From an uncultured Gammaproteobacteria bacterium (GTDB lineage: Bacteria > Pseudomonadota > Gammaproteobacteria > UBA6429 > Thiohalophilaceae), in the NCBI GenBank assembly GCA_913064945.1, contig CAJYAN010000001.1:186001-250000 (forward strand): DNA of 64,000 nucleotides, read 5' to 3'. Positions 8,385 through 53,014 of the stretch are shown in pieces. The notes under the pieces were generated by a model, which had not been told where the DNA came from, searched no databases, and saw only the letters and a list, made by a program, of their open reading frames with translations. Every line of letters starts with the position of its first letter. Position 1 is the stretch's first letter. The position numbers and the translations under genes were made by a program.

Positions 8385-8460
8385 TGGCGCGTAGCTCAGT
8401 TGGTAGAGCGACGGTCTCTGACACCGTAGGTCCTAGGTTCGAGCCCTAGCGCGCCAGCCA
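8385..8460 (+). tRNA. tRNA-Gln (anticodon CUG)
   Basis: A complete cloverleaf of 76 nt can be drawn. The acceptor stem opens with U1-A72 and the discriminator is G73, both Gln identity elements. D stem GCTC/GAGC, anticodon stem ACGGT/ACCGT with loop CTCTGAC giving anticodon CTG, and T stem CTAGG/CCTAG with TTCGAGC loop are all intact. The CCA end is encoded (8458-8460). A terminator follows within 11 bases. Confidence 0.95.
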
Positions 8461-9925: not shown

Positions 9926-9958
9926 TACTCGTTCATTGTGACTCGTCATTATTTTAAT

Positions 9959-10034
9959 TGGCGCGTAGTCCGGCTGGTAGAGCGAGGGTCTCTGACTCCC
10001 TGGGTCTTAGGTTTGTTCCCTGGCGCGCCCGGCT
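9959..10034 (+). pseudogene. Degenerate second copy of tRNA-Gln(CUG)
   Basis: The segment is colinear with the tRNA at 8385 and keeps the anticodon loop CTCTGAC. It has lost key features: position 72 no longer pairs with U1, the CCA is replaced by GCT, A14 is G, the T loop reads TTTGTTC instead of TTCGAGC, and the D stem has a C-A mismatch. The anticodon stem shows a paired change at 28/42 (C-G to G-C) but a T-T mismatch at 31/39. A functional tRNA is unlikely. The upstream 30 bp also resemble those of the intact tRNA. Confidence 0.8.
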
Positions 10035-49250: not shown

Positions 49251-49631
49251 TTAGTGCAAGGTGTTGGGCATGGACAGGGTAAAGGGCGTAATGTCGGCAT
49301 TAAACTCTACACCATCATCGGCCAGCATATGATAGCTACCATGCATACTGCCGACTGGTGTCTCCAGTACGGTACCACTGGTATAACGAAATAGTTCGCC
49401 CGGTTGTAAATGAGGTTGTTCGCCGACGACACCGTCACCCTGGACTTCCTGAATCTTGCCATCGGCATTGGTTATGATCCAGTGACGCGTGAGTAGCTTG
49501 CTGGCAACTTTTCCGGTATTGCGTATGGTAATCGTATAGGAAAAGACATAGCGATGTTGTTCCGGTGCCGATTGTTCCGGGTGGTATGCGGTTTCAACAT
49601 CGATCTTGGTGTTGTATTCATTCGATTTCAT
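49251..49631 (-). CDS. apaG: ApaG protein
   Basis: The 126-residue protein is a single fibronectin-III-like ApaG domain: RYVFSYTITIRNTGKVASKL, TRHWIITNADGKIQEVQGDG, and VVGEQPHLQPGELFRYTSGT. PVGSMHGSYHM is the conserved late motif. Function is unsettled (linked to Co2+ resistance and Mg2+ in Salmonella). A Met at 49631 is preferred; the start at 49643 would add four residues. Confidence 0.94.
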   Translation of the reverse strand: MKSNEYNTKIDVETAYHPEQSAPEQHRYVFSYTITIRNTGKVASKLLTRHWIITNADGKIQEVQGDGVVGEQPHLQPGELFRYTSGTVLETPVGSMHGSYHMLADDGVEFNADITPFTLSMPNTLH

Positions 49632-49681
49632 GTCAGTTTCCATCAGCTAGGCAGATTGCGATTGTCGGTAGATTATAACCT

Positions 49682-49960
49682 TTAATCGTCCTGACGAGAA
49701 TGCCTGTGTGATTTGACGAAGGCAAAGGCCGCCTTGACGGCTTCATCCACCTCGGCCTCCATTCGCTCGCGTTCATCCGTCGTCATGTAATAAACCATAT
49801 CGACTGTGTGGCGAACATAGCGTGCCGGCAGTCGGTTGAGGGCGACACAGGCAACATCTTCCAGGGCATCACTATCGAGGCCGTCGCTACTTGCCATGGT
49901 TTTAATGATGGCTTTATTGACCAGAGGCTCATAGTAATTGTGGATGGAATCAAACGTCAT
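49682..49960 (-). CDS. ComFB-family protein (putative cyclic-dinucleotide receptor)
   Basis: The 92-residue protein MTFDSIHNYYEPLVNKAIIK contains ALEDVACVALNRLPARYVRH and MVYYMTTDERERMEAEVDEA, the ComFB (late competence development) domain. ComFB proteins were recently shown in other bacteria to bind c-di-GMP or c-di-AMP; the binding residues were not checked here. AGAGGA lies seven bases before the ATG at 49960. It stands between the HExxH gene and apaG, close to the CheW-LysM gene, which hints at a signalling role. Confidence 0.85.
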   Translation of the reverse strand: MTFDSIHNYYEPLVNKAIIKTMASSDGLDSDALEDVACVALNRLPARYVRHTVDMVYYMTTDERERMEAEVDEAVKAAFAFVKSHRHSRQDD

Positions 49961-50029
49961 GGCAGTTCCTCTCGTGCGCACATTATTTTATATCTCAGCT
50001 TAGCGGCCCGGCTGAATTCGATCAACGGC

Positions 50030-50551
50030 TTATTGACGTAGCTTCCATGTGGGCATGAGCTGACTATCGATCAGCCCCGCCTCGTGTAACCATTGACGGG
50101 CATCGTCGGCATCCCGTTCAAACCATGCCTGACTGCTACCCAGGCGAAAACTATAACCCCAACGATCCATGTCGCTAAACATGCGCTGTCTGCCCATGCT
50201 GGCAAGTTGTTCACTGAGTACTATCTGTAAATAGCAGACCCCATTTTCTTCGTCATAGTCACCCCCCGCATCGGTATTCAATTGTTGCCGACGTGCGTGT
50301 GTCATGCAGACATAGTGGCAGGCTTCATGCAGTGCTGAATGCACCGGCGTATCGGTCCGCACATAAAGGCGGTTTTCGATGAGGCCGGCCTCTGTCTCAC
50401 CCCAGTAGCTACCGGGGATATTGTCCGTCTTGTCGACGTTGATAAGCTGCAGGCCATAGTGTTGTACAAGTGTCGCCAATTGCCCGACAGGGAGATCGTC
50501 GCAGCGAAGTATGGGGGTGTCATTGCGGGCGTGGTGGTTAGTTGTATTCAC
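50030..50551 (-). CDS. Putative HExxH-type zinc metallopeptidase-like protein
   Basis: The 173-residue protein has the motif SALHEACHYVCM, an HExxH zinc site, near residue 75. Downstream DAGGDYDEENGVCYLQIVL could supply a third ligand. No signal peptide or transmembrane segment is present. The start is GTG at 50551, with AGGA six bases upstream; it overlaps the stop of the CheW-LysM gene by 14 bases, so the two are translationally coupled. The family is not one I can name. Proteolysis is inferred from the motif only. Confidence 0.75.
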   Translation of the reverse strand: MNTTNHHARNDTPILRCDDLPVGQLATLVQHYGLQLINVDKTDNIPGSYWGETEAGLIENRLYVRTDTPVHSALHEACHYVCMTHARRQQLNTDAGGDYDEENGVCYLQIVLSEQLASMGRQRMFSDMDRWGYSFRLGSSQAWFERDADDARQWLHEAGLIDSQLMPTWKLRQ

Positions 50552-52142
50552 GAATAATCCTGACGCGGTTGCCGGGGTAAATAAGGTCCGGGTTTTTAAT
50601 ATTACTCAATCGTGCCAGTTCCGGGTAGAGAAAAGGATTATTCACATAATGTTTGGCAATCCCCCACAGGGTATCACCCTTGACGACAATGTGAAGAATC
50701 TCTCGTCGACGTGGTGTTTGTGTTTTCCCCGCGGGAATAGTTTTGCTGGCCGAGGTAGTGACCTCGGCGGCGTTATCCACTGGTGTGTCATCGAGATTGG
50801 TCGGGGGTGGCAGGGGACTCTCGCTGGCGTCCGCATTGAGTACGGATGCCTCTTGCGGTGCTTTAATCACAATCGTGATTCCCTCTGCATCCTGGTTAAT
50901 CCTGGCCTGATAGGTTGCCTTGGTCGCTGGTGCGGGGCTTGTGCTGGCGGGAGCGATCGCCTGTATCGGGACTGAGGCAACGTCCTGGTTTTTTTTTGGT
51001 ACGTCAGGCGTTGCTTCTGGTAGCGGTATCCTGTCTGATTCAGGCGGCGTTTTCGGTGCTGGCCGTTGATAGTTGTCGGCTTTACGGGTGGGGGGTGTGA
51101 TGGATGGCGGTATGCCCAGAAAATAGTAATACAGACCACCGCCTGCCGTCGCCAGCAAGAGTAGCGTTATAAAGCGTACCGTGGAGGAGGCTCCTCGATG
51201 CGCTGGAGCCGGTTTTGGACGGTTCGTAGTGACATTTGCCGGCGTAGAGGCTTTTTTTATTGTCTCTGCATCTGGCGTCGTCGGTGATGGTCTGGCCGCA
51301 ATCGTTGTTTGTGTTCTGGTGGTGGCCGTGACCTTGTGTGTCGCAGGTGTGTTGAGGCTCGTCGAGGTTTTTTTGTCGATGTCCTGGGTTGGCTTGTGCG
51401 TGTTTGTGGCGATCGACGGGTCTGGTTTGGTTGCGGGTCTTGAGGTTGCCAACGGCGGCAGGGTCTTTTTTATGGGGCGGGTTTCAGCAGGCGTGACGGC
51501 GTCGACCCTGGTGTTATTTCTTTGGGCGGGTGCCGAGCTGGTGACCGTTGTTCGTTTCACCGGTAATGAAGTGGCGTTGTTAGTCACTGTGGGCGGTGTT
51601 AGCCCGGTCGCGTCGTGAACCGTAGGGGGTATCGTGTTTGGCGCTGATCTATCCGGTATCGGTGGCGGCGCCTGGTCCGCCTGTAGTGTATCGATATAGG
51701 CCTTTAACAGGCCATGTCCCTGTAATTTGAGCAGTGCATCGAACTCGGCGTAGAGGTATATTTTTTCATTTAGTAACAGGGTGCGACTGAAAATGCCCCC
51801 GGGTAAATAGGGGGGTGGCTGTCCCCAGCCGGTCGTGGGCATTGTGAGGACATCAATAATATCGTCAACCCAGAAGGCCGTGGGGCCACTGTCGATCTCG
51901 ACGACAATGAAGCGACCGGGGCGGCGCTCGGCTTCATCCACGCCAAAACGTACACGAAGCTCTTCAGTTTTTATGACCTCGCCGCTATGGCGAAAAATTC
52001 CGGGCCGAGCCGGGTCAGCGCCGGGTGTGTGGGTAAGCGGGACCGGCTGGATAATTCTCAGGACGCTCAGGCTGGGGCCACAGCACAGTACCGGGCCTAC
52101 CCGATAAAGCAGAAGTGCTTGCTGGTCGTCCAGTGATGTCAT
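50538..52142 (-). CDS. CheW domain - transmembrane - LysM fusion protein
   Basis: The 534-residue protein has three parts. Residues 1-150 resemble a CheW domain: FRHSGEVIKTEELRVRFGVD, then ERRPGRFIVVEIDSGPTAFW and VDDIIDVLTMP, which match the CheW core. A Pro/Thr/Ser-rich linker runs from about 160 to 315. A single transmembrane helix, VRFITLLLLATAGGGLYYYF, follows near 318-338 after basic residues, so the N side should be cytoplasmic. Another Pro-rich stretch leads to a C-terminal LysM domain (HIVVKGDTLWGIAKHYVNNP, NPDLIYPGNRVRIIREYN) that would bind peptidoglycan in the periplasm. CheW normally bridges receptors and CheA, so this may tether a chemosensory-like complex to the wall. It is 65 bp after ksgA and overlaps the HExxH gene. 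Confidence 0.85.
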   Translation of the reverse strand: MTSLDDQQALLLYRVGPVLCCGPSLSVLRIIQPVPLTHTPGADPARPGIFRHSGEVIKTEELRVRFGVDEAERRPGRFIVVEIDSGPTAFWVDDIIDVLTMPTTGWGQPPPYLPGGIFSRTLLLNEKIYLYAEFDALLKLQGHGLLKAYIDTLQADQAPPPIPDRSAPNTIPPTVHDATGLTPPTVTNNATSLPVKRTTVTSSAPAQRNNTRVDAVTPAETRPIKKTLPPLATSRPATKPDPSIATNTHKPTQDIDKKTSTSLNTPATHKVTATTRTQTTIAARPSPTTPDAETIKKASTPANVTTNRPKPAPAHRGASSTVRFITLLLLATAGGGLYYYFLGIPPSITPPTRKADNYQRPAPKTPPESDRIPLPEATPDVPKKNQDVASVPIQAIAPASTSPAPATKATYQARINQDAEGITIVIKAPQEASVLNADASESPLPPPTNLDDTPVDNAAEVTTSASKTIPAGKTQTPRRREILHIVVKGDTLWGIAKHYVNNPFLYPELARLSNIKNPDLIYPGNRVRIIREYN

Positions 52143-52207: not shown

Positions 52208-53014
52208 CTAGGTTGTTGGCGCGGCAGGGGCGGTGGTTTGACTGAGTTGATTGGTCAGACAGGCGAATTGCGCCAGGCTTAGCTGTTCAGGACGAATGCC
52301 CGGGTCGATGTCGCACCTGAGAATAGCCGCCTCATCGAGGAGTGACTTGATGCTGTTACGCAGGGTCTTGCGGCGCTGAGAAAAGGCCTGGCCGACGACG
52401 TTGGCCAGCAGGGCGGGTTGCTCGATATTGACCGGCGGTTGCGGGTAGGGGCGCAGGCGGACAATCATCGAGTCAACCTTGGGGGCTGGGGTAAAGGCCC
52501 CCGGGCGGACGACGAACAGCGGTGTGATCTGGCAGTGGTATTGCGCCATGACGCTGAGGCGGCCATACGTCTTACTGCCCGGTTCGGCCGCCATGCGTTG
52601 TACCACCTCTTTTTGCAGCATGAAGTGCATGTCTGCAATACAGGCCTTTTGTTCAAACAGATGAAATAACAGCGGTGTAGAAATGTTATACGGCAGGTTT
52701 CCGATAATACGTAGCTTCTCATTGGTCTCCACGAGGCCACAGAAATCCGCCTTGAGGGCATCCATGGAGTGAAGGCGCAGGCCCTGATCGGCATAGTTTG
52801 TCGTGAGCAGGGCAACCAGGTCCCGGTCCAGCTCAACGGCATCGAGGTGGTCAAGACGCTGTAACAGTGGCTGGGTCAGAGCACCCTGGCCGGGGCCGAT
52901 TTCAACCAGGTGTTGCCCCGGCTGTGGGTTAATGGCCTGAATAATGCGATCAATAACACTATGGTCATGCAGAAAATTCTGTCCAAAGCGTTTGCGTGGG
53001 GTGTGGCTCGACAT
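52208..53014 (-). CDS. ksgA: 16S rRNA dimethyladenosine transferase
   Basis: KsgA dimethylates A1518 and A1519 of 16S rRNA. The 268-residue protein has RKRFGQNFLHDHSVIDRIIQ, the SAM loop LVEIGPGQGALTQPLLQ, and the catalytic IIGNLPYNISTPLLFHLFEQ (NLPY). The ATG lies one base after the pdxA stop, so translation is coupled. The order surA-pdxA-ksgA-apaG-apaH is the E. coli one, with extra genes inserted before apaG. Confidence 0.97.
   Translation of the reverse strand: MSSHTPRKRFGQNFLHDHSVIDRIIQAINPQPGQHLVEIGPGQGALTQPLLQRLDHLDAVELDRDLVALLTTNYADQGLRLHSMDALKADFCGLVETNEKLRIIGNLPYNISTPLLFHLFEQKACIADMHFMLQKEVVQRMAAEPGSKTYGRLSVMAQYHCQITPLFVVRPGAFTPAPKVDSMIVRLRPYPQPPVNIEQPALLANVVGQAFSQRRKTLRNSIKSLLDEAAILRCDIDPGIRPEQLSLAQFACLTNQLSQTTAPAAPTT

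Follow-up and report, generated by a model that had tools for sequence, protein, structure and literature searches.

Which cellular structure is served by a protein that carries a CheW-like domain at one end and a LysM domain at the other, with a membrane helix in between? The question is raised by a gene in a 64,000-nucleotide stretch of DNA (the window) from an uncultured gammaproteobacterium of the Thiohalophilaceae. The gene lies on the minus strand, which the preliminary description of this DNA had left unstated. That description proposed that the protein might anchor a chemosensory or signalling array to the cell wall or report the state of the wall to a CheA-like kinase, and that it might act outside classical chemotaxis. 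The parts are already known, as CheW-domain fusions, ParP-like tethers and LysM-transmembrane scaffolds; their combination appears to be new. A search of the open-access literature turned up no description of a CheW-LysM protein.

Architecture and fold of the CheW-LysM protein

The gene and the parts of its product are as follows.

50538..52142, minus strand: CheW-TM-LysM protein of 534 aa, ATG start, conserved in the family
51726..52115, minus strand: CheW-like domain, residues 10-139, predicted cytoplasmic (Pfam, AlphaFold2, Foldseek)
51174..51674, minus strand: low-complexity linker rich in Pro/Thr/Ala/Lys, residues 157-323, predicted cytoplasmic (sequence)
51117..51173, minus strand: one transmembrane helix, residues 324-342, N-terminus predicted inside (hydropathy scan)
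50856..50912, minus strand: conserved motif YxAxIxxDxxGITIxLxxP, residues 411-429, predicted periplasmic (alignment)
50556..50693, minus strand: LysM domain, residues 484-529, predicted peptidoglycan binder (Pfam)

Pfam, AlphaFold2, Foldseek and conservation agree on a CheW domain, linker, transmembrane helix and LysM domain in one 534-residue chain, as first described. The N-terminal domain belongs to PF01584 by both profile and fold. Its Pfam match (residues 10-139) has an E value of 5.1e-13 and scores 49.3 bits against a cut-off of 23.5. The AlphaFold2 model of residues 1-156, built with 21 family members, has a pLDDT of 89.9 and a pTM of 0.85; all 18 of its Foldseek matches in the PDB at E<=0.001 are CheW or CheA chains, among them 2qdl (E 5e-10) and 8c5v (E 1.5e-9), and the best have TM scores of 0.73-0.76. 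CheW chains also head a family-profile search of the PDB (2qdl, E 2.5e-11). The preliminary description had held that the CheW assignment would fall if a profile search gave no significant match or if the predicted fold was not that of CheW; the match is significant and the CheW fold is modelled. The C-terminal domain is assigned to PF01476 by profile score (residues 484-529; E 5.1e-9, 36.4 bits against a cut-off of 20.9). Its closest relative by sequence in the PDB is the LysM domain of TsaP (3jc8, E 5e-7), and it probably binds peptidoglycan.

This arrangement is retained among relatives. All 32 proteins measured have a single hydrophobic helix between CheW and LysM, and LysM with the motif GDT[LI]W is found at the C-terminal end in 31 of them; the exception, at locus L119, is apparently frame-shifted upstream. 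The linker has about 167 residues in the window protein and ranges from 116 to 554 residues among the 32, which corresponds to a contour length of at least ~42 nm. About 140 residues separate the transmembrane helix from LysM. They contain a single conserved motif, YxAxIxxDxxGITIxLxxP, which is also present in LysM-only relatives. The 15 residues preceding the helix have a net charge of +3 in the window protein. Since the charges flanking the helix are mixed among relatives, the orientation is taken from the domains themselves, which would place CheW in the cytoplasm and LysM in the periplasm.

The chance that the gene is an open reading frame artefact, or an assembly fusion of two genes, is negligible. 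A frame change interrupts the gene in G160 (L124:10061-11468) and apparently in G213 (L119:7926-9908), both outside the host's family; these copies are pseudogenes or contain sequence errors. The artefact reading is refuted by intact single reading frames, all arranged CheW-linker-TM-LysM, from some 30 independent genomes.

In the order and content of its domains, the protein falls outside the HubP/FimV, ParP and TsaP groups. HubP and FimV resemble it in having a periplasmic LysM domain, one transmembrane region, a long low-complexity cytoplasmic region and a link to motility (PMC12918733). Their order is the reverse, with LysM first and a cytoplasmic FimV/TPR domain at the C-terminus; LysM is C-terminal in the window protein, and no FimV domain was found in it by Pfam or NCBIfam. 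CheV of flagellated Gammaproteobacteria likewise combines a CheW domain with another module in one chain. Unlike CheV, the window protein has no receiver domain and carries a membrane and wall anchor in its place.

Distribution and gene neighbourhood

The same architecture was found by whole-genome search in 28 of the 37 genomes of the host's family; two of the 28 copies (G033 and G035) are cut by contig ends. In a class-wide sample, 14 of 369 Gammaproteobacteria genomes carry the gene at E<=1e-18, a strict threshold which undercounts divergent members. Only the window's own genome carries it in a sparse phylum-wide sample (1 of 399). The family is therefore sparse and is here seen only in Gammaproteobacteria. 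Named relatives are metagenome-assembled genomes. Most were deposited under Gammaproteobacteria and some under Chromatiales or Ectothiorhodospiraceae. Many of the assemblies searched are drafts that differ in completeness. Some genomes have a second, more divergent CheW-TM-LysM lineage (L063-L065), whose gene adjoins a dihydrolipoamide-dehydrogenase-like or hexapeptide-transferase gene.

In the window, the gene is located within the classical lptD-surA-pdxA-rsmA-apaG-apaH operon. Its neighbours are as follows.

52208..53014, minus strand: rsmA (ksgA), upstream neighbour (Pfam, synteny)
50030..50551, minus strand: U173, a 173-aa protein with an invariant HExxH, downstream neighbour; retained when CheW-LysM is lost
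49682..49981, minus strand: ComFB-family protein (cyclic-dinucleotide receptor family), downstream (Pfam E 2e-21, synteny)
49251..49643, minus strand: apaG, next gene of the ancestral operon (Pfam)

In the 20 family loci examined, the gene lies at or near this operon, usually after rsmA, and its usual companions are U173 and, often, a ComFB-family gene. ComFB lies within the rsmA-apaG operon in most relatives but not in all. Neither companion is an obligate partner: U173 is retained in five of the six family genomes that lack both flagella and the CheW-LysM gene, while ComFB was not seen by synteny beside the carriers L041, L050 and L053 and is present in G024 (L132), which is one of those six. 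Outside the host's family the neighbours are mostly different (acyltransferase, CHASE2 adenylate cyclase, DNA polymerase, cytochrome c), and no consistent chemotaxis or flagellar gene is found among annotated neighbours away from the rsmA locus. A promoter scan of the region gave no more sites than shuffled sequence. The preliminary description saw no other che genes in the window, and indeed no further CheW- or CheA-domain gene was found there; the host genome as a whole contains three genes for CheA and 11 CheW-type domains.

A number of other features were observed at these loci. U173 has about 60 invariant residues and is present in 34 of 48 genomes searched. It has no match in Pfam, NCBIfam or PHROGs, and its confident model (pLDDT 90.6) has no PDB fold match below E 1; it is perhaps an undescribed family resembling zinc metallopeptidases. 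At four loci (L042:9165-10187, L050:10275-11591, L051:10649-11857 and L066:633-2120), a second membrane protein is encoded directly downstream of CheW-LysM. It has the same motif and a LysM domain with a different, uncharacterised N-terminal module, so the LysM anchor seemingly serves several cytoplasmic modules. LysM-anchored proteins at L068:6999-8330 and L069:7005-7649 share an N-terminal motif like EF(F/Y)WxxPGDVP; the former has two LysM domains.

Runs of small open reading frames, mostly on the same strand, occur at L047:3-8366, L132:41-7219 and L143:886-1887, and a tyrosine-recombinase-like reading frame adjoins rsmA at L143. These runs, which lie between rsmA and CheW-LysM/U173 in one genus, look like a putative chromosomal integron. 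In two genomes of family f53 (L123:10579-12975, L125:5122-7338), the CheW-LysM gene adjoins a CHASE2-adenylate cyclase gene. The window also contains two copies of tRNA-Gln (CTG anticodon) at 8385-8460 and 9958-10033, 1.5 kb apart.

Presence of the gene and presence of flagella

All 28 carriers in the host's family have flagellin or FliM. Both are missing from six of the 37 family genomes (G001, G004, G009, G010, G018 and G024), and the CheW-LysM gene was not found in any of these six. In five of them (G001, G018, G004, G009 and G024), rsmA and U173 are assembled and CheW-LysM is absent there; rsmA directly adjoins U173 in the first four of these, and in G024 the two lie on two contigs, each flanked by other reading frames.

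Three flagellated genomes of the family, with a completeness of 75-82%, are without the gene. For G025 and G031, rsmA itself is unassembled. In the third (G023), an unrelated gene follows rsmA; in its congener G012, CheW-LysM is already apart from rsmA.

The informative set comprises 33 genomes: 28 flagellated with the gene and five aflagellate without it. The chance of perfect agreement is ~4e-6 (the reciprocal of the number of possible choices of 5 from 33) if relatedness is ignored. In a tree built from up to 13 concatenated marker proteins, the five aflagellate genomes occupy four separate positions, and the gene has been lost with flagella in 4 of 4 independent pairs; because there are only four independent losses, a phylogeny-corrected sign test gives p=0.125 at best. 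FliM or flagellin is likewise present in the carriers from other families, compared with a class background of FliM in 182 of 369 genomes. The link of the gene to flagella is well supported.

Pili provide a second candidate partner. All carriers have a PilM match, the LysM domain is closest in the PDB to that of TsaP, a LysM protein of the type IV pilus secretin, and a ComFB gene is a neighbour in the window. CheA and a PilM match are nevertheless also present in all six aflagellate genomes, and the complete ones among them (G001 and G018) have a single Chp-type CheA of ~1,900 aa; Pil-Chp alone is therefore insufficient to retain the gene. In addition, TsaP is linked to pili and has no CheW domain, whereas the window gene is missing from piliated genomes without flagella, and the association with ComFB is broken in both directions, as described above. 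A link to Pil-Chp is thus disfavoured. The type IV pilus is rejected as the main partner, and a role as a pilus component, which is largely refuted by the pattern of co-loss, is very improbable.

The suggestion that the protein may act outside classical chemotaxis is contradicted by these data. Since the carriers are flagellated and the gene has been lost with flagella four times, the protein is most likely a partner of flagellar chemotaxis rather than of a system outside it or of Pil-Chp. Co-loss itself does not separate an array from a motor or a polar landmark.

A possible tether between the flagellar array and the wall

Residues of the CheW-like domain bear on this choice. They are numbered here according to E. 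coli CheW, the sequence of which is identical to PDB 2ho9. The window protein shares with this cytoplasmic chemotaxis adaptor the two-subdomain fold (TM ~0.75), Gly57 and the receptor-groove positions L20, V36 and I39, which are hydrophobic in all 21 family members aligned; the fourth groove position, I33, is S/T/A/C. In contrast to CheW, it is membrane-bound and fused to LysM. None of the 21 members has Glu38 or Arg62, and in place of NLRG there is mostly (K/R)-(H/Y)-x-x, so that the family lacks these features of a canonical coupling adaptor. Its own signature is RVGPVLCCAP...PGIFKH...GWG. In E. coli CheW, the Glu38-Arg62 salt bridge holds the receptor- and kinase-binding sites aligned (PMC3828127). 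Both residues are kept in all six CheW, CheV, PilI and ChpC domains of the host, and neither is present in its ParP-like protein. Glu38 is not found in every CheW, since that of T. maritima has Met at this position in the profile alignment. The divergent second lineage has lost the Glu while retaining the Arg.

Because Glu38, Arg62 and NLRG are replaced, the protein itself is unlikely to serve as a signalling adaptor. This weighs against the proposal, carried over from the preliminary description, that strain or damage in peptidoglycan is signalled through the transmembrane helix and linker to the CheW domain, tuning CheA. One continuous chain does run from the wall anchor to the CheW domain. 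The low-complexity linker is nevertheless long and variable, which makes it ill suited to relay a conformational change, and the residues that align the receptor and kinase sites in CheW are absent from every member. Nothing positive was found for reporting of wall state to CheA, and such signal input is improbable.

ParP offers a parallel. In Vibrio, its CheW-like AIF domain becomes part of arrays by way of MCP and CheA and holds them at the pole (PMC5706961), coupling them to a cellular anchor. ParP has an N-terminal ParC-binding region and a C-terminal AIF domain; the window protein has the opposite order, with the CheW-like domain N-terminal, and its anchor would be the transmembrane helix and LysM on peptidoglycan, not ParC. 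The host has separate genes of this kind: its flagellar che cluster contains a ParA/C-type ATPase gene, a ParP-like gene and CheW side by side, and this flagellar CheW is the nearest free-standing CheW within the genome. Since Glu38, Arg62 and NLRG are lost and the groove is mostly kept, a ParP-like tether fits better than a canonical adaptor. The absence of both residues from the host's ParP-like protein, together with the entry of the Vibrio AIF domain into arrays, means that a tether without a role as signal coupler fits the sequence.

We therefore favour, at a probability of about 0.5, an inner-membrane tether fixed to peptidoglycan, which would fix or position the flagellar array (or the flagellar pole) against the wall. 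LysM would grip peptidoglycan while the helix spans the inner membrane, and the flexible linker of at least 116 residues would bring the CheW-like domain to the base plate of the flagellar array. The depth of this base plate beneath the membrane is a few tens of nm. There the domain may dock into or onto the array via MCP tips and/or CheA, the flagellar system concerned being that of the ParA/C-type ATPase, ParP-like protein, CheW and CheA. The protein would then work as Vibrio ParP does, with the wall in place of ParC as anchor. The analysis shows the architecture, the CheW fold, conservation across the family and loss along with flagella; both binding events and the positioning role are predicted. 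The earlier proposal that an array is fixed to the wall stands in its architectural part, which is supported by fold, profile and conservation; the link to an array is the best-fitting reading.

The location of the gene outside any che or flagellar cluster argues against an array tether. It is also conceivable, if rather unlikely, that the CheW-like fold has been re-purposed in a factor that is anchored to the wall, serves the flagellar pole or motor (as a landmark, stator or FlhF/FipA-type partner) and acts outside arrays. Co-loss with flagella is compatible with any flagellar role, NLRG, Glu38 and Arg62 are missing, and HubP/FimV and FipA are described as wall- or membrane-bound scaffolds at flagellated poles (PMC12918733, PMC11620751). 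Against this, the groove hydrophobics are largely kept and the CheW fold is intact; ParP is a precedent for a CheW-like domain as array component and tether, and the host's ParP-like protein is without the same residues.

Arrays do not generally require the tether, since 14 of 369 genomes carry the gene and 182 of 369 have FliM. The means of holding arrays vary among bacteria (ParC/ParP, FimV/HubP and others), and no single-chain link from array to wall was found in the open-access literature. That the CheW-LysM proteins are an undescribed family which physically joins the flagellar array to peptidoglycan in one polypeptide, with no ParC or landmark relay, is a tentative proposal with somewhat less than an even chance of being right. 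If it is true, the family would make it possible to ask, by way of a single gene, whether peptidoglycan holds arrays in place, and would be a case of the CheW fold serving as a tether rather than as a signalling coupler. Because the gene and flagella are lost together, any cultured carrier would allow a direct test of the hypothesis.
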